Positions 1,612 through 32,985 of a stretch of DNA of 64,000 nucleotides are shown here, piece after piece. A program made the translations under genes and the position numbers. The stretch is from Candidatus Vecturithrix granuli (GTDB lineage: Bacteria; Moduliflexota; Moduliflexia; Moduliflexales; Moduliflexaceae): contig DF820463.1 of the NCBI GenBank assembly GCA_000739535.1, positions 36,520 to 100,519 on the forward strand, read 5' to 3'. The number at the start of each line of letters is the position of its first letter. Position 1 is the first letter of the stretch. The notes beneath the pieces were generated by a model, which saw only the letters and a program-made list of their open reading frames with translations, ran no database searches and had not been told where the DNA came from.

Positions 1612-1645
1612 AAAAACCTGATTTCTTGAAAAAACCAGATTTTTT
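1612..1645. repeat. Dispersed palindrome family A, degenerate copy
   Basis: AAAAACCTGATTTCTTG is followed by its imperfect complement ending CCAGATTTTTT. This is the most diverged of seven copies of the same element in the window. It lies just beyond the 3' end of the TPR gene that ends at 1669 and, with A-runs on one side and T-runs on the other, could end transcription in both directions. Confidence 0.7.
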
Positions 1646-1668
1646 CCTGGCAATGTATGAATGCCTGC

Positions 1669-2322
1669 TTACCTATTCACCACAAGCCGCAAAGGTTGTT
1701 CTCTGGTACGGACCAATTTCACTACACGATGAAGTTCTGATTGCAGTTCTGTATTCGATGGCATAATTTTCAACGCCTTTTTGTAGCATTCGATCACCTT
1801 TGCAAGCTGACCGGCTTTTTCTGCTATCTCCGCGATTTTTCGTAATTCCAAAACCGCGTCGTTTCTTCGACGCAATTTCCACAGCAATGCAAAACATTGT
1901 TGATGAATAAAGATGTCATCGGGCTCTAATACCAGGGCATTTCGATATTGTGTGATGGCCTCTTCATAGCATGCTGCTTCAGTTAATCTGGAAGCAAAGG
2001 CTTTATATAATTCAATCGCTTCATCAAATTCTCCGATCTGGCAATATTCCTGACCCAATATTCGATGTGCGAGTGCGTTAAGAGGGTCTATGTCGAGTAA
2101 TTTCCAGCACACATCAAGAATAAAATCTTTATCTTCGTCTGAACGTGAACTTTCCTGATAATAGACCTCTATTGCTTTTTGATAATATTCCCTGGCCTGT
2201 TCATGCTGCGATAACTTGAGGTACAGCTCAGCCACTTCTTCAAAAAATACCGGATCATGCTGATATTTCGGCAGCCGTTTGATATATTTTTGAATTTTTC
2301 TTTTAAGAAAGAACTCTTTCAT
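1669..2322 (-). CDS. Tetratricopeptide repeat protein
   Basis: This is a 217-residue cytoplasmic protein made largely of TPR helices. Examples are a unit around residues 18-45 (DPVFFEEVAELYLKLSQHEQ), one near 80-110 (GEFDEAIELYKAFASR) and one near 150-185 (AGQLAKVIECYKKALKIMPS). There is no signal peptide or membrane segment. TPR proteins serve as protein-protein scaffolds; nothing here names the partner. ATG 2322 is used as start, but an in-frame GTG two codons upstream (2328) is equally possible because neither has a clear ribosome-binding site. It stands alone on the minus strand, about 220 bp from the next gene. Confidence 0.75.
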   Translation of the reverse strand: MKEFFLKRKIQKYIKRLPKYQHDPVFFEEVAELYLKLSQHEQAREYYQKAIEVYYQESSRSDEDKDFILDVCWKLLDIDPLNALAHRILGQEYCQIGEFDEAIELYKAFASRLTEAACYEEAITQYRNALVLEPDDIFIHQQCFALLWKLRRRNDAVLELRKIAEIAEKAGQLAKVIECYKKALKIMPSNTELQSELHRVVKLVRTREQPLRLVVNR

Positions 2323-2548
2323 TCCCACGATCTACTCATAGATTTCTGATTGAAATTTCTTGTGCATAAGGTCCATTCATTCTCTTCACACATTTCAACA
2401 ACACAAACGGCTTCTCATATTATTCTTATTACCATAGAAGAAGAGAAGTCGTCAAGAAATTTGTCACAGAACCTTGCATTCTGTACAATCAGAATAATGG
2501 TATTTTTTATAACTCCTTGAAATATAAGCAATTAAGATTGTTGTCAGA

Positions 2549-3601
2549 TTAAAGGTTTTTTAACCGTTCGAGATATTCTCGCGCTTGTTGGTGTGTGGCA
2601 TCTAATTCTAAGGCTTTCTGAAATTGGCTTTCTGCCTGTTGAAAATCGCGTTGGAGCAGATAAGAAACCCCCAGTCTGAAATAGACCTCCGCTTCATGGG
2701 GGAGTTTCCGAAGCAATTGACGGTGTATGTCAATGGCGCGTTGAGCATCTTGTTGGTGAATATAGACAACTCCCAGGAAATAATAAGCGTCAACAAGATC
2801 AGGACACAACATAAGAGCTTTGCGGTAATAGGCAGCTTCTTGTTCAGAATTATTGCGCAATGCCTGCCCAAGATCAATTTGTTCTTTGGCAGCAACGCAA
2901 TCGCGAGCAATCGGGATAAATATTAGTTGATTTTCTCTGGCATTAACCGTCATTTGAAAACGATTCAGAAAATTTAGCCCTAATAACCCGGAAATCATTG
3001 ATGACTCATCAAACTGATGAATGGCAGCGGTAATATTTGCACTTTCAAGGCCATTCACCGAGAGTGAGTCGAGGGTGACCAAAGGTACCTGAATGCGGCC
3101 ATTTGCGGTCTGCAAAGTAATCTGCGGAGTGGCAGATGTGGGATGAATGTGCAGCCGATTCGCGAGTTCTTGAGAAATGACGGTGTATGTGGCTCCGGTA
3201 TCAACAGCAAAGGGTCTGGTAATGTTTCGATTGAGTGTCACATCCACAATGATCATGGATTGATATTGACTATAGGGGATCACCGTTTGCTGGGCGGCTT
3301 TTTCCAGAGGCAACTCCTGGTTAGGAAAACTGGTCGTATAGGTAATCTGATTCGCAGGATTGGCTGTCAGATTGGAAAACGTTTCTTGGCCTGTATATGG
3401 ATACCATCGATTGTTACGTTTCACTTCAATAAGGCCGGCAACCGGATAGGAAGGGGGGCTGCTCGAATAATGGATTTGTCCTTGACCATTTTTCCAGCGA
3501 TAGATTTCGGCTGCCCCCGAGCAAGGCGTCAACAACGTGAAAAAGACGATGATACTGATAAGACGTGTCTGCAACAGGTCTATCTTAAAATTCAATCCCA
3601 T
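2549..3601 (-). CDS. Secreted DUF4124 / retropepsin-like aspartic protease / TPR protein
   Basis: A signal peptide (about residues 1-30, hydrophobic core IISIIVFF-like) is followed by a DUF4124-type segment (EIYRWKNGQGQIHYSSS). Next comes a clan AA aspartic protease domain with the catalytic FAVDTGATYTVIS motif near residue 133 and its partner glycine-rich strand SGLLGLNFLNRF. TPR units fill roughly residues 250-345. Start ATG 3601 is chosen because CAAGGGACAAT precedes it; the longer frame would run deep into cobO. The start overlaps the cobO end by 17 bp, so the two are probably co-translated. The single DTGA motif suggests a dimeric retropepsin-like enzyme in the periplasm; the substrate is unknown. 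Confidence 0.82.
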   Translation of the reverse strand: MGLNFKIDLLQTRLISIIVFFTLLTPCSGAAEIYRWKNGQGQIHYSSSPPSYPVAGLIEVKRNNRWYPYTGQETFSNLTANPANQITYTTSFPNQELPLEKAAQQTVIPYSQYQSMIIVDVTLNRNITRPFAVDTGATYTVISQELANRLHIHPTSATPQITLQTANGRIQVPLVTLDSLSVNGLESANITAAIHQFDESSMISGLLGLNFLNRFQMTVNARENQLIFIPIARDCVAAKEQIDLGQALRNNSEQEAAYYRKALMLCPDLVDAYYFLGVVYIHQQDAQRAIDIHRQLLRKLPHEAEVYFRLGVSYLLQRDFQQAESQFQKALELDATHQQAREYLERLKNL

Positions 3602-4133
3602 ATTGTCCCTTGACGCCATTGGCGTAATGATGTTTGATTTCCTGAACATCAGAGACCATATCCGCCAGGTCAATTAATTCCGGATTCGCATGGCGGCCGG
3701 TCAAAAGAATATGAACATTCCGGGGGCGAAAATTTCGAAGAAATGTCAACACAGGAGAAATCGCAAGAAACCCGTATTCAAGAGCGCAATGAATTTCATC
3801 CCAAATGACCAGATCGTAGAGGGTTGATAACACTTTCTCTTGACATACTTGCCAGGTCTGACCGGCCGCTTCACACTGTACAGCCTGATCCGGTTCCTCC
3901 CAGGTACATCCTCGCCCCATCGAAAAAATTTCAAACAAGGGCGGCTGCTCGGTCTCAAAAAATCTGAGCGCGTTCAGTTCGCCATAAACTTTCGGCTGTT
4001 TGATGAATTGCACCATTGCCACGCGCATACCATGTCCGCAAGCCCTCAAAGCAGTTCCTAGTGCTGCTGTGGTTTTTCCCCGGCCATTCCCGGTGTAGAG
4101 CAGAATCAATCCCTGTTTTTCAGGATATTTCAT
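3585..4133 (-). CDS. cobO: Corrinoid (cob(I)alamin) adenosyltransferase, CobO/BtuR type
   Basis: 182 residues, the normal length for the BtuR/CobO/CobP family. The nucleotide-binding loop GNGRGKTT is at residues 15-22, followed by ALGTALRACGHGMRV. Further family motifs are VQFIK and VIWDEIH near the middle and LTGRHANPELIDLADMVS near the end. The enzyme transfers the 5'-deoxyadenosyl group of ATP to cob(I)alamin in the cytoplasm, making coenzyme B12. No other corrin genes are nearby, so it may serve salvage. It lies 12 bp after the M48 protease gene and overlaps the next gene by 17 bp, so all are likely one transcript. Confidence 0.92.
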   Translation of the reverse strand: MKYPEKQGLILLYTGNGRGKTTAALGTALRACGHGMRVAMVQFIKQPKVYGELNALRFFETEQPPLFEIFSMGRGCTWEEPDQAVQCEAAGQTWQVCQEKVLSTLYDLVIWDEIHCALEYGFLAISPVLTFLRNFRPRNVHILLTGRHANPELIDLADMVSDVQEIKHHYANGVKGQYGIEF

Positions 4134-4145
4134 ACAGTTGTTTTC

Positions 4146-5492
4146 TTATTGTTGAGGTTTCAAATACCCCCATTGTATGAGGCGATCATACGCATACTCT
4201 GCCTGATCACCCTCATTGATGTTTTGTAAATAGCGATAATATTCTTCTGACGCTTTTTGGCGATATTGCATACCCTCTAAGGCCACCGCTTTCAGGAAAA
4301 TTGTATTAGGATTTCCAGGCAACATCGTTTCATAACGGTCAAAATCCTGATATGCCGCGTCATATTTGTTTTGATCGAGCTTTGCTATACCGCTGACGTG
4401 TTGCGCCTGGGCTTCGGCCGGATAGACACGTTTGGCTTGTTCCGCATAATATTCAGCTTTTTTCGAGTTGTTTAAGGCTAACTGACATTTGGACATCATC
4501 ACCAATCCAGCGTAGTCATCGGGAACCTGACGCAAGGCGTTGTCAAAGAAACCTTCGGCTTTGGAATATTGTTCCTGCGTCATCGCCTTTTCCCCTTCCT
4601 GCAAGTTTTCAATCGCCTCTTTTATTTGCCTCAACCCCGCAGTTGCATCCATATACCGTTCCTGATTCAACGGATAGTCCTGCATTGCCAGATAAGTTGT
4701 TTCGGTGCGCTGTTTTGCGGTCTGATAGCGTTCCTCGCTCATCGGATGGGTCGAAAACATCATGTCAATCGCTGAGGGTTTATGATCAGACAGGCTGCGC
4801 AAGACCTCCATCAAGCCCACCATACCCTGTGGATTATACCCCACGCGTGTCATATACTCCATGCCTAACTCATCAGCCTGGCGTTCATCATCTCGGCTGT
4901 AATGCGCTAATAAAGCCCCGGCGGCGATATTTCCTAACCCGGCAGCAAGAGCGGCATATTTCTCATGCTTTTTTTCCACATAGATTGCGACGCCAGCAAC
5001 CACCAGACTGGTCAAAATACTTTTCGTCATCCGCTCGGCGGTGTGCCGGGCGTTTACATGTCCGATTTCATGCCCCAATAATCCGGCAAGTTCAGCTTCA
5101 TTGTCGAGTTCCAGTAGAATCCCACGTGTCGCAGCAATACTTCCTCCGGGAAAGGCATAGGCATTGACATACGTGGCATTCACACAACGAAATGAGTATG
5201 GCATATTCGGGCGGTGAGAATTGGCGACTAATTCATTGCCAACTTGCGTCAGGTAGTAGTTGAGGGAGGAATCTTGAACATCGCCATAGTCAGAAGAAAA
5301 TTGGTGCGGAGAATTTTCCTGATCCAGTTGAATTTCATCGCTCTCTGTCAAAAACATCAATTGACGTTGGCCCGTGACCGGATTTATAGCGCATCCGGTC
5401 ACGGCTCCGGCTGTAGAAACTGTAGCTAACCACAAAAAATCACGCCGCGTCATTGTTCGCGTAGAAATCCGATTTTCAGGATGATGTTGCAT
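4146..5492 (-). CDS. M48-family zinc metalloprotease with C-terminal TPRs (BepA-like), Tat lipoprotein signal
   Basis: The start is ATG 5492, behind AAAGGAGG at a spacing of six; the longer frame runs into the bactofilin gene. The N-terminus has a twin-arginine signal (TRRDFLWLA) ending in a lipobox, VTGC, so it is probably exported folded and lipid-anchored. The zinc motif HEIGH lies near residue 142, and the downstream glutamate ligand is in DERQADELGMEYM. From about residue 300 the chain is TPR-like. BepA/LoiP relatives degrade or assist misfolded outer-membrane proteins in the periplasm, and that role is inferred here. The length of 448 residues is close to BepA. Gene order bactofilin-protease-cobO suggests one transcript. 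Confidence 0.9.
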   Translation of the reverse strand: MQHHPENRISTRTMTRRDFLWLATVSTAGAVTGCAINPVTGQRQLMFLTESDEIQLDQENSPHQFSSDYGDVQDSSLNYYLTQVGNELVANSHRPNMPYSFRCVNATYVNAYAFPGGSIAATRGILLELDNEAELAGLLGHEIGHVNARHTAERMTKSILTSLVVAGVAIYVEKKHEKYAALAAGLGNIAAGALLAHYSRDDERQADELGMEYMTRVGYNPQGMVGLMEVLRSLSDHKPSAIDMMFSTHPMSEERYQTAKQRTETTYLAMQDYPLNQERYMDATAGLRQIKEAIENLQEGEKAMTQEQYSKAEGFFDNALRQVPDDYAGLVMMSKCQLALNNSKKAEYYAEQAKRVYPAEAQAQHVSGIAKLDQNKYDAAYQDFDRYETMLPGNPNTIFLKAVALEGMQYRQKASEEYYRYLQNINEGDQAEYAYDRLIQWGYLKPQQ

Positions 5493-5508
5493 AATCTGCC
5501 TCCTTTGC

Positions 5509-5916
5509 TCATTCGATGTTATTGCGCATTCTCCAGCGTCGGAGTTTTGCGTAATCATCTTCAGTCAACGCTTTAAAGTCTCGAATACCTAATTCAACGG
5601 GATCCGGCTCCTGAATGACTAATCCTCCAGAAAAGAGCGACTGCTCTGCCATAGCGAGCTTTGACGTCCGAAGGTTGCCTTTCACTCTGGCAGTAGCGGT
5701 TAATTGTAAAAGAGTTTCCGCAGTGACATCCCCCATAACTTCTCCGGAAATGATAATTTTATCGGCTCGAACTTCCCCTTCCACATAGCCGGATTGCTCA
5801 ATACTTAAATTCGCATTTTGCAAATAGACGGAACCTTTCACAACTCCTTTAATTGTCAAATCCGTTTCTCCAAAAATATCTCCTGTCACAACTAATCCAT
5901 GCTCAACAACAGACAT
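5509..5916 (-). CDS. Bactofilin (polymer-forming cytoskeletal protein)
   Basis: 135 residues starting at ATG 5916, preceded by GGGAGG. The central part is the bactofilin beta-helix with short glycine-turn repeats, for example VVTGDIFGETDLTIKGVVKG, SVYLQNANLSIEQSGYVEGE and ADKIIISGEVMGDVTAE. The C-terminal tail EPDPVELGIRDFKALTEDDY is less conserved. Bactofilins self-assemble into filaments without nucleotide and organise cell shape, stalks or polar complexes. Its stop is 16 bp from the next start, and the protease SD lies in that gap, which favours co-transcription with the M48 protease. Confidence 0.88.
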   Translation of the reverse strand: MSVVEHGLVVTGDIFGETDLTIKGVVKGSVYLQNANLSIEQSGYVEGEVRADKIIISGEVMGDVTAETLLQLTATARVKGNLRTSKLAMAEQSLFSGGLVIQEPDPVELGIRDFKALTEDDYAKLRRWRMRNNIE

Positions 5917-6115
5917 AGCATTCCTCCCTCTCAAAATGACTTCAGATACCAATCCTCTGATTGACAAACCAATGAATAAATTTTGATCATTTCCTGGCAA
6001 ACAGGTGTGTATATATAAATAGAATATGCACAATGAAGAGATGGGTCAAGAAAAAAATGTGAAAATGACTGAATCTCCTGATTCAGTATGCAAGTGGATT
6101 GTTTCAGAACTTTGC

Positions 6116-6144
6116 TTGACAAAATATACGCCTGTTCTTAGGAT
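6116..6144 (+). promoter_or_regulatory. Sigma-70-type promoter
   Basis: TTGACA (6116-6121), a 17-bp spacer and TAGGAT (6139-6144) lie about 100 bp before the plus-strand gene at 6246. The long leader leaves room for regulation, but I see no riboswitch fold. The remaining 5917-6245 gap is otherwise unremarkable. Confidence 0.6.
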
Positions 6145-6245
6145 CGCTTCAGAAACAAAGTAAAATTAGAAGTATTTTATTCTCAACTTCTGCTGGGGTT
6201 CTGAAGCCTGTCAGAGGTGTTTCACATAATCAAGGAGATGTCGTT

Positions 6246-6749
6246 ATGAAAAATATCGTGATGTCTGTTGTATTGATAATGTTGTTGTTTTGGACGGGCG
6301 TCGCTCATACAATGACTGTCTATTTTAAAGATGGCACGCAACTTGAAGTCGATCAGGTGACGCGGATTGGCAGTTCTGTGTGTTTGATGGTAGATATTAG
6401 CCGCATTGATACCACGCGTACCCCGATAGAAGCATTACCCGGCACCACGCCTACAAAACCGGGAACGCTTTCTATTGTAAACACGAATTTTACACCCTCT
6501 GAGGACAATAGCGAAATTATCGCCACAGGCGATGTGGTCAATAACACCGCGTCGGCGGTGCAGAATATTCGTATCACTGTCACCTTACAAGATAAAAACG
6601 ACAGGACTCTATTGACAATTCACGGCTATACGCGCCCGGAAAAACTGGAACCGGGACAGACCGGCACTTACCGCATTCAGGTCAGGAAACCAGAAGGATT
6701 TTGGAAAGCCAGCGTTGCCGTAAAAGCCGAGACAATTCCACAGCCCTGA
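6246..6749 (+). CDS. Secreted protein with FxLYD-like domain
   Basis: 167 residues. Residues 1-22 are a signal peptide, after which MTVYFKDGTQLEVDQV looks like a short beta module. Residues of about 75-165 resemble the FxLYD/DUF3426-type immunoglobulin-like fold: GTLSIVNTNF, then ATGDVVNNTASAVQNIRITVTL, ending with LEPGQTGTYRIQV. Proteins of this type are often small envelope or surface components of unknown function. AAGGAG stands eight bases before the ATG, and a good promoter lies 100 bp upstream. The following AEC carrier gene is separated from it by a strong hairpin. Confidence 0.68.
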   Translation: MKNIVMSVVLIMLLFWTGVAHTMTVYFKDGTQLEVDQVTRIGSSVCLMVDISRIDTTRTPIEALPGTTPTKPGTLSIVNTNFTPSEDNSEIIATGDVVNNTASAVQNIRITVTLQDKNDRTLLTIHGYTRPEKLEPGQTGTYRIQVRKPEGFWKASVAVKAETIPQP

Positions 6750-6761
6750 CAGCAGAATTCC

Positions 6762-6810
6762 GGAGTGGCAAAGCTCTGCTTTGACAGCAAAAGCAGAGCT
6801 TTTGCACTCC
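6762..6810. repeat. Long intergenic hairpin (family C palindrome)
   Basis: Two near-perfect arms of about 22 bp face each other: GGAGTGGCAAAGCTCTGC (6762-6779) and GCAGAGCTTTTGCACTCC (6793-6810). The hairpin fills the gap between two genes and stops only a few bases before the ribosome-binding site of the AEC gene. Its 15-base core GAGCTTTTGCACTCC recurs in the hairpin at 27503-27535, so this is a second dispersed element type. Confidence 0.75.
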
Positions 6811-6824
6811 AACAGGAGGATTGT

Positions 6825-7760
6825 GTGACAAAAATTTTTTTCAGTGTGTTACCTGTACTCACCCTTTTCGTACTTGGATATTTATTACAACGCATCTATT
6901 TTTTCAAAGAACGGTCGATTGGGGACATCAAAAAACTGGTGGTCTCGATTGCCCTACCCTGTTTGTTATTTCGGGCGTTCTCCCAGCTTGAACTGCAACC
7001 CAAATTTCTCGTTGTGGTGGTGCTAGTCTTTGGAATCTGCGGCATCATGTTGATGCTCGGCGAAATGCTTGCCCATGCTTTGCATATTTCCTCGCCTTAT
7101 TTTCCGATTTTGCTCGGAGGTTTTGAAACCGGGATGTTAGGTTATGCCATTTTTATTGCCGTGTATGGCATTGACGAGATCGATAAACTTGCGATTATTG
7201 ATCTGGGTCAGGTGTTATTTGTATTTTTTGTACTGATGGCGCTGTTGATGAAACATCGGGACGGAGCGCAAAGTGTTTCGCAGCTCGTGAAGATGTTTCT
7301 CTCTTCACCAGTGATCATCTCGATCTTTCTGGGGATTTTCGTCAGCCTGGTTAAAGGAGACGCCGATTATTCCACCAATCGTATGGTACACTTTGTCGGG
7401 CAGGTAATGACCCTCTTAGGAAATCTGACGGTTCCGCTGATCTGCCTGGTCATCGGTTATGAACTGAAATTTGATTTTCACAGCGCCCGGCTTTCAGTGA
7501 AAACCATCATTATTCGTAAAATTTTCCTCATCGCATTTGCACTGCTGATGAATAAAGTGGTCTTTGTCCGCATTTTACACCTTGAACCAATCTATGAATA
7601 CGCGTTGCTGGCCATGTTTCTGATGCCGCCGCCCTTTGTGATCGCCCTTTTCCTGAAGGAGGAGGATCAAGAAAATCAGCAGTATGTGGTGAATACGCTC
7701 TCGTTAAGTACAATCGTCTCAATCGGTTTGTTTATCGTGATCAGCATGGTATATCGCTAA
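6825..7760 (+). CDS. AEC-family transporter (auxin efflux carrier/malonate permease type)
   Basis: 311 residues starting at GTG 6825, which has CAGGAGG five bases upstream; the longer reading would translate the hairpin repeat. The chain is almost wholly hydrophobic, with about ten membrane segments in two halves. Family marks are VSIALPCLLFRAFSQ in the first half and the pattern LTVPLICLVIGYEL followed by PPPFVIALFL in the second. AEC proteins are secondary carriers for small organic anions such as malate or malonate in the inner membrane. The substrate cannot be told. A GNAT gene follows after 19 bp. Confidence 0.85.
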   Translation: MTKIFFSVLPVLTLFVLGYLLQRIYFFKERSIGDIKKLVVSIALPCLLFRAFSQLELQPKFLVVVVLVFGICGIMLMLGEMLAHALHISSPYFPILLGGFETGMLGYAIFIAVYGIDEIDKLAIIDLGQVLFVFFVLMALLMKHRDGAQSVSQLVKMFLSSPVIISIFLGIFVSLVKGDADYSTNRMVHFVGQVMTLLGNLTVPLICLVIGYELKFDFHSARLSVKTIIIRKIFLIAFALLMNKVVFVRILHLEPIYEYALLAMFLMPPPFVIALFLKEEDQENQQYVVNTLSLSTIVSIGLFIVISMVYR

Positions 7761-7779
7761 CAAGGCGGAGAAAAATAGG

Positions 7780-8193
7780 ATGAAATGGGAAAAAGAGAAC
7801 TACTGGATCACTGATGATCCAACGGCAGTCAATCTTGATTTCGTCACGGAAGCACTTCACAGCACGTATTGGGCCAAAGAACGTCCCAGAGCCACAATCG
7901 AAAAAGCCTTTGCTCATTCTGTAGCCCTTTCCTTATTTGACCAGGACACACAAATCGGCATGGCCCGTATTATCGGCGATCAAGCCACTTTTGCCTGGAT
8001 TTCTGATGTCTTTGTTGATCCAGTATATCGAGGGCAGGGATTAGGAAAATGGCTCGTCCAATGTATCCTTGAACATCCGCTGTGTGATGTAAAAATTCGT
8101 CTCCTGGCAACCAGAGACGCTCAGGGTCTGTATGCCCAATTTGGTTTTACGTCTAAAGCGTGTATGATCTTTCAGCATCCAATGAAAAAATGA
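7780..8193 (+). CDS. GNAT-family N-acetyltransferase
   Basis: 137 residues, a single GNAT domain. The acetyl-CoA pyrophosphate-binding motif is seen as VFVDPVYRGQGLGKWLV (about residues 79-95), preceded by the strand pair IGMARIIGDQATFAWISD. Near the C-terminus is LYAQFGFTSK, the usual helix 4/beta 7 region. It transfers an acetyl group to a small amine or a protein N-terminus; the substrate is unknown. It follows the AEC gene by 19 bp and probably shares its transcript. Confidence 0.87.
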   Translation: MKWEKENYWITDDPTAVNLDFVTEALHSTYWAKERPRATIEKAFAHSVALSLFDQDTQIGMARIIGDQATFAWISDVFVDPVYRGQGLGKWLVQCILEHPLCDVKIRLLATRDAQGLYAQFGFTSKACMIFQHPMKK

Positions 8194-8321
8194 TGTATTG
8201 GTGACGTACAAATGGGTTGACCCTGGAGTGTGACAAATTCAATCATAACATGTTATAGGAATTTCATATTGTCAAAAGAAAAGTACTTGACATATTTTGT
8301 AGGGCATGAACTAACCAATAC

Positions 8322-8354
8322 TTACTATCAGGAAAAATGATTGCTTGATAGTAA
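8322..8354. promoter_or_regulatory. Inverted repeat in the leader of the sugar-uptake operon
   Basis: A perfect 9-bp inverted repeat, TTACTATCA (8322-8330) and TGATAGTAA (8346-8354), stands 56 bp before the binding-protein start. A TTGACA (8287-8292) lies upstream but has no good -10 partner. The repeat could be an operator for an inositol-responsive regulator. No regulator gene adjoins it. Confidence 0.4.
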
Positions 8355-8409
8355 TGGCCAATAAGGATTGTGCAGTGTTTATTACAAAAAACTTCAAGGA
8401 GGTAACTCT

Positions 8410-9369
8410 ATGAACGGTAAAGTGGTGAAGATTTGTGTGAGTCTTGTGTTGCTGCTGGCAATGGCGTTCTCTTTTCCTTTTGGAAAAGTTCAGGCCGCCG
8501 AAGAAAACTTTAAGTTTATTGTGGTCTCTCATGCGATCGCTGTTCCGTTTTTTGTCCCGGTCCGCAAAGGAGTTGAAGAAGCTGGTGAAATTCTTGGAGT
8601 GGATGTCCAGTTTACAGGGCCTCCGGATTTTAATATTCCGCGTCAAATTGATTTTATTAAAGCTGCGATTGCGGCAGGAGCTGATGGCATTGGAACAACG
8701 ATGCCCGATGCGGAAGCCTTTAATGATGTTGTTCAGGAAGCGATGGCGCAAGGAATTCCGGTGATTGCCTTAAATGCGGATGCTCCCAAAAGCGGACGTC
8801 TGGCATATATTGGTCAGGGAAATTATGAAGCCGGACGCTCGATGGGGAGTGAAGTGGTTAAACTCCTGCCTGATGGCGGGCATGTGATGTTAGGTATTCA
8901 CACGGCGGGCGCGTTCAACCTGGAAGAGCGAATTAAAGGCGTGAAAGATGTGTTGGATGAGACCGGGAAATTTACGTATGATGTCGTGGCGACAACAACA
9001 GATATGGTTCGGGCGACTTCTTTGATTTCCAGTTACTATCAAGGGCATCCTGATACCAAAGGGATGTTTGGCGTGGAAGACATCACCGGCTCGGCTATCG
9101 CTCAGGTTATTGATAAAGATGGTTTGAAAGGGAAAGTAGTTGCTGGCGGCTTTGATCTGGTATCTGATATTTTGATGGCGATTAAAGATGGCAGAATGCA
9201 GTTTACCATCGATCAACAGCCCTACCTTCAAGGTTTTCAAACCGTCATGCAATTGTTTCTGCTGAAAAAATATCAACTTTCTCCGACGGATGTCAACACC
9301 GGAATCGCGCCGGTTACGGCTGAAAATATCGATAAAGTCATTGATCTGGCTGAAAAAGGCTACCGTTAA
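8410..9369 (+). CDS. Sugar ABC transporter substrate-binding protein, probable myo-inositol binding
   Basis: 319 residues, starting at ATG 8410 behind AAGGAGG. Residues 1-29 are a signal peptide cut near VQAAEEN. The mature part is a periplasmic binding protein of the ribose/galactose type (Peripla_BP_4): FKFIVVSHAIAVPFFVPVRK, AAIAAGADGIGTTMPDAEAF, GIPVIALNADAP and a late FTIDQQPYLQGFQ, which is the usual hinge and sugar-binding strand. It captures a sugar or cyclitol for the ATPase and permease encoded next. Because iolB and iolD follow in the same direction, myo-inositol or a related cyclitol is the most likely ligand; that is inference from context. Confidence 0.85.
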   Translation: MNGKVVKICVSLVLLLAMAFSFPFGKVQAAEENFKFIVVSHAIAVPFFVPVRKGVEEAGEILGVDVQFTGPPDFNIPRQIDFIKAAIAAGADGIGTTMPDAEAFNDVVQEAMAQGIPVIALNADAPKSGRLAYIGQGNYEAGRSMGSEVVKLLPDGGHVMLGIHTAGAFNLEERIKGVKDVLDETGKFTYDVVATTTDMVRATSLISSYYQGHPDTKGMFGVEDITGSAIAQVIDKDGLKGKVVAGGFDLVSDILMAIKDGRMQFTIDQQPYLQGFQTVMQLFLLKKYQLSPTDVNTGIAPVTAENIDKVIDLAEKGYR

Positions 9370-9374
9370 TCATC

Positions 9375-9414
9375 AAAAAGCCACATACGGTTTTTCACGT
9401 ATGTGGCTTTTTTT
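9375..9414 (+). terminator. Intercistronic Rho-independent terminator/attenuator
   Basis: AAAAAGCCACATACG and CGTATGTGGCTTTTT pair perfectly around an 8-base loop, and the second arm runs into T residues. It lies between the binding-protein gene and the ATPase gene. Such partial terminators commonly keep binding-protein mRNA more abundant than the membrane components. Confidence 0.85.
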
Positions 9415-9434
9415 GCATAAAGGCAAGAATATTT

Positions 9435-10928
9435 GTGAGCGATGTACCGTTTTTGCAAATTGAAGGAATCAGCAAATACTTCGGATCGATAACCGCGCTC
9501 GACAATGTGTCGTTTTCTCTGGAAAAAGGGCATATTTGCGGGTTGGCCGGGGAAAATGGTGCCGGGAAATCCACGCTGATTAAAATTTTGTGCGGCGTTC
9601 ATGCGCCGGATGCCGGCAATATTTCCCTGGAAGGCAGCCTGCACCGGCCGAAGGACCCTGCTGAGGCTGAGGGACAGGGAATCAGTGTCTTTCACCAGGA
9701 AATCCCTATCTGCCCGAATCTTTCGATTGCCGCCAATGTGTTTTTGGGGCCGAAAATGCCGACAAAGGCGGGACGGCCGGATTGGAAACACATGAACCAG
9801 CAATGCGAAGAGTTGTTTGAAACGCTCCTGGGTGAACAGATTGATCCGACAAAACATATTCGCGATTGCAGCGTCGTTGAACGCCAACTGGCCCTTCTGG
9901 TGCGTGTGCTCTCACGCAATGCGCGTCTGGTAGTTTTGGATGAGCCGACAACAGCGCTGACCCCTCCGGAAGTCGATCGCTTGTTTGCGATCATCATGCG
10001 ACTCAAACAACAAGGTATCACCTTTATGTTTGTGAGCCACATGCTTGAGGAACTGATTGAACTTTCAGATCAGATTGTCGTACTGCGAGACGGATGCTTT
10101 GTTGGGCGGTTAGAACGAGAAGAGTTTAGTTCTGAAGTGCTCTCGCACATGATTGCCGGTCGAACGTTAAGTGGTCAGTCATCTCGCCGAGAATTGCCCC
10201 AGAAATCTCCGGTTTTAGAGGTGAGAGATCTGTCGGTACGCGGCCAGATCTCTGGTGTGTCTTTTCAGCTTCGCCGGGGAGAAATTTTGGGAATCGCCGG
10301 GTTAGAAGGGTCTGGTCGTTCGGCTGTTGCCCGGGCGTTGTTCGGAGCGCCCCCGGCAGAAAGCGGAACTATTCGGGTTGATGGGAAGGATGTTCGTATT
10401 ACGAATCCGAGTGACGCCATGCAGCATGGAATCGGCTATGTTCCTGAAGATCGCAAAAACCTGGGGCTTTTTGATGATATGGACATTAAGTATAATCTAG
10501 GGATTGCGGATGTTACACGCTTTACCCGTTGGGGGCTGATGAGCCGCGAAAAATTACGAATCCTGGCGCACACGGTGCAACAGGACTTCCATATCAAAAT
10601 GACGACTCCTGATTCGCTCATCACGAGTCTTAGCGGAGGAAATCAACAGAAAGTGTTGATTTCACGCTGGCTGGCACTGCGACCTCATGTGCTGGTCATG
10701 AATGAACCGACGCGGGGCGTTGATGTCGGGGCAAAAGAGGAAATCTGCAATTTGATTCTGAAATTAGCGGATGAAGGTTATGCGTTTGTGCTTTCGTCGA
10801 CAGAGCTAGAGGAAATGCTGAGTATTGCCGACCGTATTTTAGTGATGAATAGAGGGCGAGTGGTTGCTGAGTTTTCCAGAGCAGAGGCGACAAAAAATAA
10901 AGTGATTCTGGCTGCCACGACCTCATAG
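9435..10928 (+). CDS. Sugar ABC transporter ATP-binding protein, tandem-domain RbsA/MglA type
   Basis: 497 residues, the usual length of CUT2 ATPases. The first nucleotide-binding domain has a full Walker A, GENGAGKST (residues 39-47), and Walker B VVLDEPTTAL. The second has the degenerate loop GLEGSGRS (about residue 292), signature LSGGNQQK near 400 and VLVMNEPTRGVDVG, as is normal for this family. It drives import through the permease encoded next. It starts at GTG 9435 with only a weak AAGGC upstream, just after the terminator hairpin. Its stop overlaps the permease start by one base, so the two are translationally coupled. Inositol specificity is inferred from the neighbouring iol genes. 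Confidence 0.9.
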   Translation: MSDVPFLQIEGISKYFGSITALDNVSFSLEKGHICGLAGENGAGKSTLIKILCGVHAPDAGNISLEGSLHRPKDPAEAEGQGISVFHQEIPICPNLSIAANVFLGPKMPTKAGRPDWKHMNQQCEELFETLLGEQIDPTKHIRDCSVVERQLALLVRVLSRNARLVVLDEPTTALTPPEVDRLFAIIMRLKQQGITFMFVSHMLEELIELSDQIVVLRDGCFVGRLEREEFSSEVLSHMIAGRTLSGQSSRRELPQKSPVLEVRDLSVRGQISGVSFQLRRGEILGIAGLEGSGRSAVARALFGAPPAESGTIRVDGKDVRITNPSDAMQHGIGYVPEDRKNLGLFDDMDIKYNLGIADVTRFTRWGLMSREKLRILAHTVQQDFHIKMTTPDSLITSLSGGNQQKVLISRWLALRPHVLVMNEPTRGVDVGAKEEICNLILKLADEGYAFVLSSTELEEMLSIADRILVMNRGRVVAEFSRAEATKNKVILAATTS

Positions 10929-11959
10929 TGAATAATTCCAAAAACAACGATACTAACCTTATGAAACAGGAACAACCTACACATCTCATGCCAGCCAATA
11001 AGAAAAATGCGTTTCAGCGCTTATATGGATTACATGATTTCGGGGTGTTGGTCGCGGCTATTGTGATTGCTGTTTTTTTCTCCATCGCATCGCCAGCCTT
11101 TTTAACACCTTATAATTTGTTTAATCTTTTTCGACAAATGTCAGAGCTTGGCATTATTGCCATGGCGATGACCATTCTGATTATCTCTGGAGAGTTCGAC
11201 CTTTCTGTCGGAGCGATCTACGCTGTCACTGGTGTAGTGACCGGCTTGTTGTTCAAAAAGGCGGGAATCGATATCTGGTTTGCCGCAATGCTTGCGATTC
11301 TCCTTGCTCTGATGTTAGGTTTTATTAATGGGCTGTTAATTACCAAAACCCGCATGCATTCCTTTATCGGAACACTCGCCACCATGATGGTGTTTCGTGG
11401 GGCTGCAATGGTACTTTCGCAAGGCCAGCCGATTTCGGCATTTCCTCAAAAGATCTTTTTCGAAATTGCCGGAAGAGCCAAATTGTTCGGCGCCGTTCCA
11501 ATTCCGATTCTTTGGCTTCTTGTCTGGGGGGGGATCATGTATATTGTCCTGCACCATACGGCTTTTGGCGTCAAGGTCTTTGCAACAGGCGACAATCGTG
11601 AGGCTGCTGATCTTGCAGGCATTAAAACCGTGCACATTAAACGCTTGAGTTTTTTGATTACTGCACTTGCCGCTGGCGTATCGGGTATTATTTCCCTCGG
11701 CTATCTGAAAACCGTCACCCCAACCCAGGGAACCGGCATCGAACTCGAAGCGATTGCGGCGTCCGTCATTGGCGGCACAGCCATGAGTGGAGGGGTTGGA
11801 AGTATTATCGGCACGTTTTTAGGGGCGTTAATCATGGCGGAAGTCCGAACCGGGTTAATCTTGTTAGGAACCGATGCTTATGTTCAGGACGCCTTTGTCG
11901 GATTGATTATTGCGGTTGCGGTGGTCATTAATGTCAGATTAAGTCATCGCAAAACATAA
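10928..11959 (+). CDS. Sugar ABC transporter permease, RbsC type
   Basis: 343 residues with a soluble N-terminal tail of about 40 residues and then about ten hydrophobic segments. Family features include NLFRQMSELGIIAMAMTILI, SGEFDLSVGAIYAVTGV and the conserved cytoplasmic loop FATGDNREAADLAGI, which contacts the ATPase. Toward the end, GTAMSGGVGSIIGTFLGALI is typical of BPD_transp_2. It forms the inner-membrane channel of the CUT2 importer. It starts at GTG 10928, one base inside the ATPase stop codon. Confidence 0.9.
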   Translation: MNNSKNNDTNLMKQEQPTHLMPANKKNAFQRLYGLHDFGVLVAAIVIAVFFSIASPAFLTPYNLFNLFRQMSELGIIAMAMTILIISGEFDLSVGAIYAVTGVVTGLLFKKAGIDIWFAAMLAILLALMLGFINGLLITKTRMHSFIGTLATMMVFRGAAMVLSQGQPISAFPQKIFFEIAGRAKLFGAVPIPILWLLVWGGIMYIVLHHTAFGVKVFATGDNREAADLAGIKTVHIKRLSFLITALAAGVSGIISLGYLKTVTPTQGTGIELEAIAASVIGGTAMSGGVGSIIGTFLGALIMAEVRTGLILLGTDAYVQDAFVGLIIAVAVVINVRLSHRKT

Positions 11960-12004
11960 TGGTTTATCAAATTAAGTACGTAACAAAGAGTTTTTGAGTA
12001 TTCT

Positions 12005-12037
12005 AAAAACCGGATTTCTTGAAGAAATCCGGTTTTT
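12005..12037. repeat. Dispersed palindrome family A
   Basis: AAAAACCGGATTTCTT, centre GA, then the complement ending GGTTTTT. Perfect symmetry lets it work as a terminator from either side. It sits between the permease and iolB. An open frame runs through it in phase with iolB, which makes iolB look longer than it is. Confidence 0.85.
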
Positions 12038-12086
12038 CTGCCTGGAAATTTATGAACCCGTACTTATCTTCAAGGAGGCAGAACTC

Positions 12087-12890
12087 GTGTATCATTTGCA
12101 ACAGAAGAAGCCGTTCATACAAGGTTATAATGCCATCACAGAGGATGCAGAATCTACTGGCGGAACGATGATGGATTTTGGAATCCTGGTGCTTGCTGCT
12201 GGTGAACGTTACGAGTGCCAGGTACTAAAAGAACGGGCATTTCTGGTGATGAATGGACGCATGGTATTCACTTCTGAGGGAATCACGAAACAGGCTGAAA
12301 GGCACTCGTTATTTGATGAAAACCCTGAAGTGCTTCATGTTCCTTCCGGCGTGCCCGTCTCCATTCTTGCGGAAACCGCTGCCGAAATTGCCGTTTTTCG
12401 GACTACAAATGAAAAAACATTTATTCCCACATTTTATGAGAAAGCCGATACCAGGGATGAATATCGGGGGGTCGGAACCATGGGCGAAACATCCACCCGG
12501 GTTGTCAGAACCACGTTCGATGATCAAAACGCCCCTGACGCGGATCTTGTTATCGGAGAAGTGATCACCTTTCCGGGAAAGTGGTCCAGTTATCCTCCTC
12601 ATCATCATCCGCAGCCGGAAATCTATCATTATCGCTTTTTGCCTGAGCAGGGCTTTGGGTTTGCAATGGTGGGGGAGGAGGTCTTTAAAGTCAAACATGG
12701 CGATACTGTGAAAATTCTTGATGATAAATCGCACCCTCAGGCGGCCGCTCCGGGCTATGCCATGTATTATATCTGGACGATCCGACATTTGGATGACTGT
12801 CGCTATGGGGAGCACAGCGCTACTCCGATTTTTGAACCGGAACATCTCTGGGTGACGCAGAAAGATGCGGTCATCTGGCCTGGCAAGTGA
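12087..12890 (+). CDS. iolB: 5-deoxy-glucuronate isomerase
   Basis: 267 residues, normal for IolB. GTG 12087 is the start because AAGGAGG lies just upstream; the 31 extra upstream codons read through the palindromic repeat and are not coding. The bicupin chain has the metal-binding cluster YPPHHHPQPEIYHYRF near residues 170-185, and the family features YRGVGTMGETSTRVVRT and late PGYAMYYIWTIRHL. The enzyme converts 5-deoxy-D-glucuronate to 2-deoxy-5-keto-D-gluconate in inositol breakdown. With iolD 320 bp downstream and a sugar importer upstream, it anchors the assignment of this locus to inositol catabolism. The pathway genes iolG, iolE, iolC and iolJ are not in the window. Confidence 0.93.
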   Translation: MYHLQQKKPFIQGYNAITEDAESTGGTMMDFGILVLAAGERYECQVLKERAFLVMNGRMVFTSEGITKQAERHSLFDENPEVLHVPSGVPVSILAETAAEIAVFRTTNEKTFIPTFYEKADTRDEYRGVGTMGETSTRVVRTTFDDQNAPDADLVIGEVITFPGKWSSYPPHHHPQPEIYHYRFLPEQGFGFAMVGEEVFKVKHGDTVKILDDKSHPQAAAPGYAMYYIWTIRHLDDCRYGEHSATPIFEPEHLWVTQKDAVIWPGK

Positions 12891-13024
12891 TGTATGTCGA
12901 AACTGAAGAACGTTAAATAATTATTGTGGTCATATCCAGAACCTCACCCCGGCCCCTCCCCAAAGGAGCTGACAAGGATAGGTATTGGATGCTGACGCCT
13001 CGTTCGCCCATCCATCAATGGCCG

Positions 13025-27057: not shown

Positions 27058-27095
27058 ACAACGTGAGTGATTATAAAAGATTTTTTTGCACATCA

Positions 27096-27126
27096 GAAAC
27101 CGGGTTTTTTCGAAAAACCCGGTTTC
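27096..27126. repeat. Dispersed palindrome family A (TTTTTTCG centre variant)
   Basis: GAAACCGGGTTTTTTCGAAAA followed by the complement CCCGGTTTC. The centre differs from the other copies. Unlike most copies it stands in front of a gene (the OppD-type one) rather than behind one. Confidence 0.78.
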
Positions 27127-27197
27127 TTGGTATGCTAACGCGCTTTAGCGAGTTTTCCGCTTGAAGGCAAATTTAGGTAACAATGTATTAGTGCTTC

Positions 27198-29893: not shown

Positions 29894-30472
29894 ATGAGAG
29901 TGACGGCGTTTAACGGAAGCGCCAGAAAAGATGGCAATACTGCAATTCTGCTTCAGGCTGTGTTGCACGAATTGGAACATGAGAGCATTGAAACCGAACT
30001 GATTCAATTTGCTGGTGAGACGATTCGAGGATGTACGGCCTGCCGTGTCTGCTTTGAAAAAAAGAATCAACGCTGTGTTATTGAGGATGATCGGGTCAAT
30101 GAATGGATTGAGAAGATGATTGCCGCCGATGGCATTATTTTCGGATCACCTGTATATTTTTCCGATATTTCCGCTGAAATGAAAGCGTTTATTGACCGAA
30201 GCGGCCATGTTGGCCGCGCGAATAACGATCTGTACCGGCGCAAAGTGGGCGCGGCCGTGGCGGCCGTCCGGCGGGCCGGAGCCATTCACGCCTTAGATTC
30301 CATGTACCACTTCTTTTTCATTCACCAGATGATCGCGCCGGGTTCGAATTACTGGAATCTGGGGATCGGACGGGACAAAGGAGATGTGGAAAACGACCTG
30401 GAGGGGATACGCACGATGAAAGTGCTCGGGCAAAACATGGCATGGCTGTTGAAAAAATTAGAGAACGCCTGA
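29894..30472 (+). CDS. NADPH-dependent FMN reductase / iron-sulfur flavoprotein-like
   Basis: 192 residues with AAAGGAGG before the ATG. The flavodoxin-like fold is seen in VTAFNGSARKDGNTAILLQA (FMN phosphate loop) and IIFGSPVYFSDISAEMKAFI. Between them GCTACRVCFEKKNQRC gives cysteines spaced as in iron-sulfur flavoproteins of the Isf type, although the motif is close to, not identical with, the classical compact cluster motif. It probably passes electrons from NAD(P)H or ferredoxin to a small acceptor. It lies 57 bp after the GntR gene and may share its transcript. Confidence 0.85.
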   Translation: MRVTAFNGSARKDGNTAILLQAVLHELEHESIETELIQFAGETIRGCTACRVCFEKKNQRCVIEDDRVNEWIEKMIAADGIIFGSPVYFSDISAEMKAFIDRSGHVGRANNDLYRRKVGAAVAAVRRAGAIHALDSMYHFFFIHQMIAPGSNYWNLGIGRDKGDVENDLEGIRTMKVLGQNMAWLLKKLENA

Positions 30473-30493
30473 ACATAATTTTTGAATACTTTC

Positions 30494-30525
30494 AAAACCG
30501 GGTTTCTTCAAGAACCTCGGTTTTT
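30494..30525. repeat. Dispersed palindrome family A acting between convergent genes
   Basis: AAAACCGGGTTTCTTCAAGAA is followed by CCTCGGTTTTT, with one mismatch to perfect symmetry. It lies exactly between two convergent genes (stops at 30472 and 30537), where a two-way terminator is needed. Confidence 0.82.
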
Positions 30526-30536: not shown

Positions 30537-31613
30537 CTATGAGTATTCATACGTGTAGCCGCTGAATTGTACGGCGGCAATTTCCTGGGGAGAGGCGCAG
30601 GTGAAAATTGACGCCTGTTTCGCAGCAAAGTCAAGTGTACGCAGGATTCCGAGCGCGCAACACGCACCGTTGTGATCGAGGAGGCCAAGCAAAAGATTAC
30701 GGTAGTCTTCCGGGGTAGAATTTTTGATATAGCTGGATTCGCCTAAAACGGTTTTCAGACGCATCATCTGCTGGTATTTCAATTTCTGGGATGTGACTAT
30801 TGCGATTTCTCTGCCAAGTATTTCTCCCCAGAGAATTTGCGGGAAAACTGGCGTTGGCGGGTTTGCTTGAGAAGGTAACGCTGTTTGAACAGGGATTGAA
30901 GCGCGGAGTTCCTGGTTTAACTGCTTGATCCTCTGCTCAGAGAGCGCACTGCCTTTGAAAAGATGGGTATCAAAGACGCCGATATCCTCCAGGGAACAGT
31001 GGATCAGCCGAGCCTCTGTAAAATAGCGTTTAAAAAATTTCGTTCTGTGGCTCTGTCGGTCTGATATTGTTTTTGTGCGACATTGAGACGGGGGAAGAAG
31101 TCGCAGAATGATCGGTTTCTCGAACCCATGATACGCGCTCAGAATATGTTCACATTCTCCGGCTCTCTGCAAACAGACGATTACGTCAGGCGCTGTAAGC
31201 TGAATTTTGTGGGTTTTTAACACGCGCCCTAATTGTCCGGAAATGAGACCAGTCGTATCAAGAATAATTTTCTGCAATTCCTGAGTCAGAGCGTTATCAA
31301 GCATTTTGCGCGTTCCGATCACCAAAGGGAGCAGGCAGCCTTTCGGTGAGATCGAGCCGACAAAATAGAGGGATTGCAGGACGGCATCGCAAAGGCTCGT
31401 CAGAGGGGTCTGCACAACGCCAAATCCGACAGTGGTCGGTGGTCCGATATCGGATTGCCCAATATCCGCATCAATAATGCCAACAGAAAAACCCTGATGG
31501 AATAGTTCATTTGCCAGAGCCAGAACAAACGTCGTTTTGCCGGTATCTTTGTCGCCCATGACAAAGATGATGCGTTCTTTCAGCGCGACTTCAAGCACCT
31601 GTTCAGGGATCAT
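30537..31613 (-). CDS. Clp1/Grc3-like P-loop polynucleotide 5'-kinase family protein
   Basis: 358 residues. The P-loop is GDKDTGKTT (about residues 20-28), followed by the Clp1/Grc3 hallmark IIDADIGQSDIGPPTTVG and then FVGSISPKGCLLPLVIGTRK. The string KIILDTTGLISGQLGRVLK holds the Walker B-like aspartate and the DTTG element of the family, and VIVCLQRAGECEHIL follows. In eukaryotes and archaea these enzymes phosphorylate RNA or DNA 5'-OH ends. The role of bacterial members is not established. It starts 8 bp after the YggT gene stop, so it belongs to the proC-yggT operon. The C-terminal 100 residues (TSQKLKYQQMMRLKTVLGES) are family-specific. Confidence 0.78.
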   Translation of the reverse strand: MIPEQVLEVALKERIIFVMGDKDTGKTTFVLALANELFHQGFSVGIIDADIGQSDIGPPTTVGFGVVQTPLTSLCDAVLQSLYFVGSISPKGCLLPLVIGTRKMLDNALTQELQKIILDTTGLISGQLGRVLKTHKIQLTAPDVIVCLQRAGECEHILSAYHGFEKPIILRLLPPSQCRTKTISDRQSHRTKFFKRYFTEARLIHCSLEDIGVFDTHLFKGSALSEQRIKQLNQELRASIPVQTALPSQANPPTPVFPQILWGEILGREIAIVTSQKLKYQQMMRLKTVLGESSYIKNSTPEDYRNLLLGLLDHNGACCALGILRTLDFAAKQASIFTCASPQEIAAVQFSGYTYEYS

Positions 31614-32012: not shown

Positions 32013-32023
32013 TTATGATTCTT

Positions 32024-32866
32024 TTATATTGAAAGATCGTGAAAGATGGTTTTGCCTTCTCCCAATTCCTGCGAGCGGCGTGTCGCCGCTTCAACAGCGT
32101 TCATGATGGCTGCCGTGAGGCCGTGACGTTCAAGGATATGAATGCCGGTAATCGCTGTTCCTCCGGGTGAGGTTACCATATCACGCAGTTTCATGGGATG
32201 CTCCTGGGTCTCAATCGCCATTTTTGCCGCGCCATACACCGATTGTGCCGCCAGTTTCAGGGCGATTTCCCGTGAAAATCCGACTCTGACCCCGGCGTCT
32301 GCCAGCGCGTTAATCACGTGAAAAACATAGGCCGGGCCGCTGCCGCTCAAGCCGGTGACCGCATCCATTAATTTTTCTTCAACGACGACTGTTTCACCGA
32401 CGGCATTAAAAATTTCTCCGGCGACGCGAATATCTTCTTCAGTCGCATATTTCCCCGGACTCATTGCTGTCATTGCCGCATGCACCAACGCTGCAATGTT
32501 CGGCATGACGCGGACAACCCGGGTGGGTCTCAAAATTTCTTGAATCAGATCAATCTTCACGCCCGCTGCAATTGAAATCACCAGTTTTTTTTCATCCACA
32601 TGTTCTGAAATTTCTTGCAACACCGTTTGAATAATCTGGGGTTTCACAGCCAAAATCACGATCTCAGCCGGTTTGACAACCTCGGTGTTATCTCTGGACG
32701 TTCGAATTGCATACCGTTGTGTTAAGACATCCAAACGTTCCTTTGATACATCGCTGGCTGCAATGTGCTCTGGCGGGACCACTCCCGCCGGATGCAATAA
32801 ACCTCTGATCAAAGCTTCTGCCATGTTTCCGGCCCCAACAATCGTGATATATTTTTCTCGTAACAT
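32024..32866 (-). CDS. proC: Pyrroline-5-carboxylate reductase
   Basis: 280 residues, normal for ProC. The NAD(P)-binding Rossmann motif is ITIVGAGNMAEALIRGLL at residues 7-24, and the second strand motif VILAVKPQIIQTVLQE is present. The C-terminal dimerisation domain has the ProC signature DAVTGLSGSGPAYVFHVINA and LRDMVTSPGGTAITGIHILE. It reduces 1-pyrroline-5-carboxylate to L-proline in the cytoplasm. AAGGGA precedes the ATG. It is followed by yggT and the Clp1-like gene on the same strand. Confidence 0.96.
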   Translation of the reverse strand: MLREKYITIVGAGNMAEALIRGLLHPAGVVPPEHIAASDVSKERLDVLTQRYAIRTSRDNTEVVKPAEIVILAVKPQIIQTVLQEISEHVDEKKLVISIAAGVKIDLIQEILRPTRVVRVMPNIAALVHAAMTAMSPGKYATEEDIRVAGEIFNAVGETVVVEEKLMDAVTGLSGSGPAYVFHVINALADAGVRVGFSREIALKLAAQSVYGAAKMAIETQEHPMKLRDMVTSPGGTAITGIHILERHGLTAAIMNAVEAATRRSQELGEGKTIFHDLSI

Positions 32867-32917
32867 TACGTCATCCCTTGTTGAATTGAGTATAAATTTA
32901 TAGCTTGAAGAATGTTA

Positions 32918-32946
32918 TTTCAGGAATTCGCGGCTCATTCCCGAAA
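32918..32946. repeat. Palindromic repeat family D
   Basis: TTTCAGGAAT and ATTCCCGAAA arms, as in the copy at 20412-20442. It is immediately followed by a family A palindrome, so two element families are packed in one 147-bp gap. Confidence 0.65.
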
Positions 32947-32953
32947 TAACAGG

Positions 32954-32985
32954 AAAAACCGGATTTCTTGAAGAAACCCGGTTTT
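32954..32985. repeat. Dispersed palindrome family A
   Basis: AAAAACCGGATTTCTT, centre GA, then AGAAACCCGGTTTT. It lies just past the stop of the TPR gene ending at 33014 and can act as its terminator. Confidence 0.85.

Follow-up and report, generated by a model that had tools for sequence, protein, structure and literature searches.

A REP-like 33-bp palindrome dispersed in Candidatus Vecturithrix granuli and found, near-identical, in distant bacteria

How does a small sequence travel, when a near-identical 33-bp palindrome is found in cyanobacteria, a sulfate reducer, metagenome-assembled genomes (MAGs) of Chloroflexi and a sparsely sampled phylum? The question is raised by a 64,000-nucleotide stretch of the Candidatus Vecturithrix granuli genome (contig DF820463.1, positions 36,520 to 100,519; hereafter the window), in which a first-pass annotation had reported seven symmetrical palindromes of about 33 bp; all seven lie where it had placed them. 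Short repeats are usually regarded as confined to a species or genus. We consider it probable, if well short of certain, that this palindrome is a dispersed cassette resembling the repetitive extragenic palindromes (REPs), which distant bacteria have exchanged and several of them have amplified separately, and that one of its forms may be a terminator of transcription. Two observations take the matter beyond the first-pass annotation, namely the near-identity of the palindrome across phyla and its presence in shells like those of miniature inverted-repeat transposable elements (MITEs), which also occur with alternative centres.

The palindrome in the host genome, in other phyla and in shells

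A covariance model built on 52 family copies (alignment A1, with six of the window's seven among them) finds exactly seven copies in the 64 kb, at 37-59 bits on either strand; the next match scores 14 bits (E = 0.46), and the search gave no eighth strong copy in the window. The half-site AAGAAAYCCGGTTTT, allowing up to 3 mismatches, matches the window 27 times, whereas 100 shuffles average 6.2 matches and never reach 27. A whole-genome count, the check that had been proposed for these repeats, reveals a large family: a relaxed exact pattern matches 288 times in the 8.38-Mb host assembly (21 contigs), and its reversed control 0 times. The patterns and mismatch thresholds are our choice and copy counts vary with them, from 84 (strict) through 109 (looser) to the 288 of the relaxed pattern; the half-site occurs 303 times. 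The assembly has a stated contamination of 10.75%, but copies lie on at least 17 of its 21 contigs. An iterated profile yielded 133 merged elements in a 1.66-Mb sample (C18:1-800000, C19:1-800000 and the window), which extrapolates to about 670 in the genome. We could anchor and type 125 of the 133 (8 were dropped), and the typing and placement counts below refer to these. The 33-bp unit reads roughly RAAACCNGGTTTYT, a short loop and ARAAACCNGGTTTY; by its outer ends it is type A (AAAAACC..GGTTTTT, 67 copies), type B (AGAAACC..GGTTTCT, 42) or mixed (16).

The two arms vary in step. In the 92 copies that are exactly 33 nt long, pair 2/32 is A-T in 64, G-C in 27 and intermediate in one, and pairs 8/26, 9/25 and 14/20 vary likewise, with one to three intermediates each; the four variable pairs occur in ten combinations, all four being paired in 85 of the 92 copies. 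Across all 64 distinct 33-nt copies, 96.1% of cells are paired and 79 cells carry two-sided changes; 500 shuffles gave 25.5 and never attained 79. A 51-row subset gave 62 two-sided changes against 18.3 in shuffles, and no slid version comes near; alignment A1 had omitted 7 distinct 33-nt copies, and the recount on all 64 agrees with it. What is conserved is thus the whole palindrome rather than one fixed sequence; founder subfamilies contribute to these counts. The earlier proposal that the copies had spread recently is too simple, since divergence of the arms has been symmetric and has produced ten combinations, and since the family is common to other phyla.

A scan for the 27-base core, with one genome per species, returned at least 88 stretches, 84 of them cyanobacterial by title. 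The cyanobacterial matches listed include Oscillatoria, Planktothricoides, Microcoleus, Argonema and Limnofasciculus; the other matches listed are a Chloroflexi MAG, a Thermoflexales MAG, 'bacterium isolate Yes70-08' and the complete chromosome of Desulfonema magnum. We then counted relaxed-pattern matches in 19 genomes, in all of which the reversed control was 0. The host's 288 is exceeded by Oscillatoria sp. PCC 10802 (449) and O. princeps (414) and followed by Argonema (194), Microseira (160), Yes70-08 (152), Limnofasciculus (117), Planktothricoides (85) and five other cyanobacteria (6-27); Desulfonema magnum has 6 in its complete chromosome, and the Chloroflexi and Thermoflexales records have 6 and 2, both being MAGs in which contamination is possible. 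Three other genomes of the host's phylum have 0, 1 and 0 matches (0, 1 and 1 when the pattern allows a reversed centre), and the palindrome is absent, by the relaxed pattern, from the same-family genome examined. Among 385 genomes, drawn from relatives or domain-wide, only three have matches: the host, a relative with 1 and a distant genome with 2. Host Rho is 86-88% identical to that of two phylum mates, versus 72% for Yes70-08 and 74% for Desulfonema. An exact 27-bp palindrome is not expected twice by chance; the simplest reading is horizontal sharing between phyla, with separate amplification afterwards.

The surroundings of some copies point to a possible route. In Oscillatoria, many copies are central to an element of about 96 bp with ends TATAGCG..CGCTATA; we found 24 such end pairs, 17 with the palindrome and 7 without it, two longer pairs being doubtful (one since it contains another pair). 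In L080 and L282 of these seven, and less clearly in L120, outer-arm remnants enclose a GC-rich palindrome. The host has three shells of its own, each with a reversed-sequence control of 0. Shell ii (7 pairs) holds this palindrome in 3, a GTAGCCCCGCCC-type centre in 3 and another GC-rich centre in 1; shell i (3 pairs) holds it in 1 and a CTCGCAAAGCCC-type centre in 2; shell iii (5 pairs) holds it in two, one of which lies in the window (Table 1), and another palindrome in one, while the remaining two pairs may be chance. Because the shells carry differing centres, they suggest to us that insertion at hairpin tips is one route, by which the palindrome would enter the tips of existing palindromes; it may also move partly as cargo of the MITE-like shells. 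The most complete version of this account is a tentative one that we would not favour as it stands: a cross-phylum cassette whose single centre came into unrelated MITE shells of different phyla by hairpin-tip insertion, whose shells also take other palindromic centres, and whose gene-end copies act as bidirectional terminators, occupying about a fifth of the convergent gaps in the sample (26 of 125).

Position at gene ends and the case for termination

The copies had been described as lying mostly behind genes, and this holds for the larger sample, in which type A is strongly biased to gene 3' ends and convergent gaps. Gene calls come from a home-made hexamer caller, and the distances are therefore approximate. 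Of the 125 typed copies, 117 lie outside called genes, and some of the 8 'inside' calls are doubtful, that of the window's 12005 copy included. Of the 63 type A copies outside genes, 54 are no more than 60 nt from a gene 3' end, 22 are in convergent gaps and 3 in divergent ones; the corresponding numbers are 19/38, 2/38 and 7 for type B, and 13/16, 2/16 and 2 for mixed copies. Random intergenic positions gave 20.7% within 60 nt of a 3' end, 11.5% convergent and 26.7% divergent. Types A and B differ both in 3'-end proximity (p = 0.0002) and in convergent gaps (p = 0.0006). Counted by gaps of at least 33 bp in the sample, a copy is held by 26 of 125 convergent, 73 of 733 codirectional and 12 of 141 divergent gaps. 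Such placement is what a bidirectional terminator would show, and the form with a U-run shows it most strongly.

Type B, which has no U-run, is less tied to 3' ends and sometimes lies in 5' leaders. Several type B copies stand in a conserved leader consisting of the palindrome, TACACGCMCGAATGAAAATTTCATTTACATGGGAG and a start codon, 42-53 nt before called genes (C18:216134, C18:676930, C19:233424 and C19:668362; L141, L164, L182 and L204); for the right flank of this leader, the best 8 of 19 matches all have a copy or a degenerate copy nearby. Two further type B copies lie in long open frames, one (L149:13215-13247) in that of a TIR-NACHT-FGE-sulfatase protein, where it falls between TIR and NACHT, and the other (L201:14401-14433) in that of an alpha-2-macroglobulin-like protein, within its bait-region domain. 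In a cyanobacteria-rich set (three non-cyanobacterial loci included; loci shorter than 5000 bases and copies without both gene neighbours excluded), 61 of 96 type B copies are within 60 nt of a 3' end versus 17.4% of random positions, and 2 of 96 are divergent versus 23.6%.

Bidirectional intrinsic terminators have an A-run, a GC stem and a T-run on both strands, and lie behind genes and in convergent gaps. Type A shares this layout and placement; it differs from them in belonging to a shared sequence family in which no sense-strand adaptation was detected. A stable hairpin is predicted on both strands, as had been anticipated for the window's copies, at -18.7 to -21.3 kcal/mol for good copies and -11.9 for two imperfect ones. 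The combination of a stable hairpin and a U-run behind genes is found in type A only, where the U-run pairs with the A-run. Transcribed behind a gene from either strand, type A would fold into an RNA hairpin of 14-16 bp with a U-run, which may act as a bidirectional terminator or as a protector of 3' ends. We rejected a link with loss of Rho: rho matches above the cut-off are present in the host, three phylum mates, Yes70-08, Desulfonema and the Thermoflexales MAG, while the Chloroflexi MAG has a partial match only and the three cyanobacteria tested have none above the cut-off. The family is thus not tied to Rho-less genomes.

Weighing the explanations

A number of results weigh against the account of an exchanged cassette with a terminating form. 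In the 51-row subset, the number of pair types is not above that of shuffles (16 versus 14.9; 120/500). A terminator scan of window positions 1-17000 misses all three perfect copies there, presumably because their T-run pairs with the A-run. Terminators tuned to the upstream gene are expected to have longer downstream T-runs and to favour G-U over A-C mismatches; in codirectional gaps, type A copies have a downstream T-run of 5.32 versus an upstream A-run of 5.08 (p = 0.26), and the mismatched pairs on the sense strand are 13 G-U versus 16 A-C, so that no selection on the transcript is seen in this genome (the cyanobacteria-rich set has 12 G-U and 7 A-C, which is not decisive). In 11 of 37 codirectional type A gaps, no more than 60 nt lie outside the element, which leaves little for a promoter of the next gene; these copies may therefore be inside operons. 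Inverted flanks exceed the 99th percentile of the control at only 8 of 125 host copies (1.2 expected) and exceed the control at 3 of 121 copies in cyanobacteria-rich loci, so the shells explain few copies directly, and by this test most copies have no visible shell or mover. The 125 typed copies have no excess of direct repeats of 2-10 bp (target-site duplication) beside the 33-bp core.

Nor did we find a clean empty site in comparisons of joined flanks, of Oscillatoria synteny or of Microcoleus. The joined flanks of host and other copies gave one weak spanning match in a partial listing (C18:263124, 75% over 128 bp), which we did not count as an empty site since it lies within another repeat family. 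Two Oscillatoria genomes are syntenic over about 16 kb only, and the sole comparable site is occupied in both; another site is occupied in all three genomes compared. At the Microcoleus site, 8 of 29 genomes have a copy, whether intact or degenerate, and no clean empty site can be read there because the spacer is full of unrelated tandem repeats.

Among the alternatives, the strongest is a purely selfish or neutral repeat, spread by some mover and merely tolerated behind genes, with no role in termination. The lack of T-run asymmetry, the lack of G-U preference and the copies in likely operons all favour it, as do the abundance of type B (42 of 125) and its own 3' bias in the cyanobacteria-rich set. 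It sits poorly with the host, in which copies with a U-run lie at 3' ends and in convergent gaps far more often than type B copies do and in which 26 of 125 convergent gaps hold a copy. We regard this alternative as possible but on the unlikely side. Because neither T-run asymmetry nor G-U preference is seen, we see termination as a likely effect of the A form rather than as an established or selected function.

A second alternative, that these are ordinary host terminators kept alike by gene conversion and not mobile, appears improbable. Type A does lie at gene ends, and at one orthologous Microcoleus site (L211-L222) the arms differ between species in a largely symmetric manner (the central C/G swapped, and TTTCT changed to TTTAT in both arms), as if one arm had been copied from the other, which conversion could produce. 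Conversion within the host is hard to reconcile with near-identical copies in other phyla and their absence from one same-family genome, with a palindrome central to several unrelated shells, and with the existence of type B and 5'-leader copies.

Mobilization as a GTAG/CGTC REP family by a REP-associated tyrosine transposase (RAYT) is very improbable. REPs of the GTAG and CGTC superfamilies are likewise short palindromes, present in many copies and intergenic, mostly between codirectional or convergent genes (Di Nocera et al. 2013, PMC3733652, cited here and below from part of its text), so that size, palindromy, copy number and placement all match; the host genome, moreover, has 12 Y1_Tnp matches. 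A search for a RAYT partner had been proposed, and it came back empty: none of the 12 host Y1 transposase loci has a pattern-matching copy within 1.5 kb, and neither does any of 28 such loci in four other palindrome-carrying genomes. A covariance search near Y1 loci gave only three weaker copies (L038, L289 and L293, 23-32 bits), no more than chance at this copy density. We therefore rejected RAYT as the mover, Y1 transposases being present but not visibly beside the repeat. Within 8 nt of the edge, GTAG is slightly commoner than background (7 of 125 copies versus 1.8) and CGTC is not (2 versus 3.0); 118 of 125 copies lack the former and 123 the latter, so that there is no systematic tag, and the near-perfect symmetry leaves no unpaired one. 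Other vehicles were sought as well: viral contigs gave no exact match of the 27-base pattern, and phage and plasmid collections gave no BLAST match with the low-complexity filter on.

Least plausible of all, alongside RAYT mobilization, is a binding site for a dimeric DNA-binding or nucleoid protein: in cyanobacteria-rich loci the halves frequently form 15-bp palindromes of their own (AGAAACCNGGTTTCT; 252 units in 624 kb, of which 198 lie within double palindromes), but only 6 such units occur in 1.66 Mb of the host genome, the host CCGAG/CTCGG subtype breaks the half-palindrome while keeping the whole, and placement at 3' ends is unlike that of operators.

Compared with known repeats, the palindrome has the broad features of a REP (a 20-40-bp palindrome, high copy number, extragenic position and 3' bias) and fails the defining tests of RAYT-linked REPs; it differs from REPs in having neither a systematic GTAG/CGTC tag nor a RAYT association, in being nearly fully symmetric, and in being near-identical across phyla. 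According to the same partial text of PMC3733652, CGTC REPs have no dedicated transposase, and frequent G-T pairing in REP stems is taken as a sign of transcription; the host palindrome has no G-U excess. Some REP families there sit inside longer palindromes, including as dimers, and the paper reports that in two species no target palindrome is devoid of REPs, whereas here the same shells occur with other centres. Some copies, central to elements of about 92-106 bp with inverted ends (shells i-iii and the Oscillatoria shell), resemble MITEs; unlike MITEs, most host copies have no visible shell, the 33-bp core has no target duplication, and one shell has differing centres. The TAACTGA direct repeats of Beggiatoaceae, Cyanobacteria and Bacteroidetes are likewise short, intergenic and patchy across phyla, and horizontal transfer without an evident mechanism was suggested for them in the part of the source consulted (MacGregor 2015, PMC4679880); they are direct heptamers lying mostly just upstream of start codons, whereas our palindrome lies mainly near stop codons. 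REP-like palindromic repeats of 43-45 bp in the Planktothrix mcy cluster, also in a filamentous cyanobacterium, differ in being GC-rich and in being described as sites where ISPlr1 inserts, a comparison made by description only, from part of the source (PMC4766695). A full-text literature search with the half-sequences, with figures and supplements outside its scope, returned no paper on this repeat by title.

The window's copies and what the family may mean

Five of the seven window copies lie behind genes, one lies in a convergent gap and one is upstream of a gene (Table 1), as the first-pass annotation had it. Its description of A- and T-runs on opposite ends fits the type A copies, and the 27095 copy belongs to a different subtype without the outer A/T run; perfect symmetry likewise does not hold throughout, the copies at 1612, 30493 and 32954 being imperfect.

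Table 1. Palindrome copies and associated elements in the window, with their gene context
Feature	Position	Strand	Description	Gene context
Palindrome copy	1612-1644	strandless	Type A, imperfect	24 nt behind 3' end of TPR gene 1669-2328 (-)
MITE-like shell iii, 92 bp	11974-12065	strandless	Inverted ends AAGTACG.../...CGTACTT, 12005 palindrome in centre	
Palindrome copy	12005-12037	strandless	Type A, perfect 16-bp arms	45 nt past the end (11959) of an ABC permease gene
Palindrome copy	15091-15123	strandless	Type A, perfect	4 nt behind TPP-enzyme gene 13152-15086 (+)
Downstream flank of 15091 copy	15124-15154	strandless	Resembles downstream flank of 15179 copy	
Palindrome copy	15179-15211	strandless	Type A, perfect; start 88 bp past start of 15091 copy	
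Palindrome copy	27095-27127	strandless	Type B (AGAAACC..GGTTTCT)	Immediately upstream of ABC ATPase gene 26086-27057/27093 (-)
Palindrome copy	30493-30525	strandless	Type A-like, imperfect (script typed 'mix')	Between convergent genes 29894-30472 (+, FMN reductase) and 30537-31613 (-)
Palindrome copy	32954-32986	strandless	Type A-like, one mismatched pair	About 28 nt behind 3' end of 33014-34102 (-); also about 88 nt upstream of P5C reductase gene 32024-32866 (-)

The 15091/15179 pair seems more likely to stem from a local duplication than from two insertions because the downstream flank is also common to both: over 33 nt (from 15122 and 15210) the downstream flanks are identical at 23 positions, and the upstream flanks at 9 of 33. 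A longer profile matches 1578-1672 around the 1612 copy, a possible shell remnant. The left flank of the 27095 copy resembles that of a copy at C18:410209, whose flank in turn resembles shell i. The 12005 copy was counted as 'inside' in the placement statistics because a doubtful TTG-started frame (11994-12890) was called over it. A weak, degenerate match to the palindrome (14 bits, E ~0.5) lies at 1481-1514, about 100 bp before the 1612 copy. By Pfam, the ten genes around the window copies encode TPR proteins, an ABC permease, a TPP enzyme, a chemotaxis receptor, an ABC ATPase, a solute-binding protein, an FMN reductase, a CLP1-like P-loop protein and a P5C reductase, and no common functional theme was found among these ten.

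Many further repeats of about 50-150 bp are dispersed through the C18/C19 sample of the host, often palindromic ones, such as the GCAAAAGCAGAGCTTTTGC, TCTCGCAAAGCCCGC, GTAGCCCCGCCC and GCGCGAAACTCCAGTTTCGCG types, and two of these repeats touch the window at 6758-6811 and 13002-13097. Elsewhere in the window are a degenerate GTTGGCGTTGG tandem repeat (1-139), a 63-bp tandem duplication, 83% alike, inside a TPR gene (33029-33154), and a 6S RNA above the Rfam gathering score (51104-51297, minus strand).

If type A terminates transcription, the palindrome would be a mobile repeat that rewires gene ends genome-wide. If insertion at hairpin tips is true, the family would represent a class of mobile DNA that builds nested palindromes and supplies ready-made terminators across phyla.

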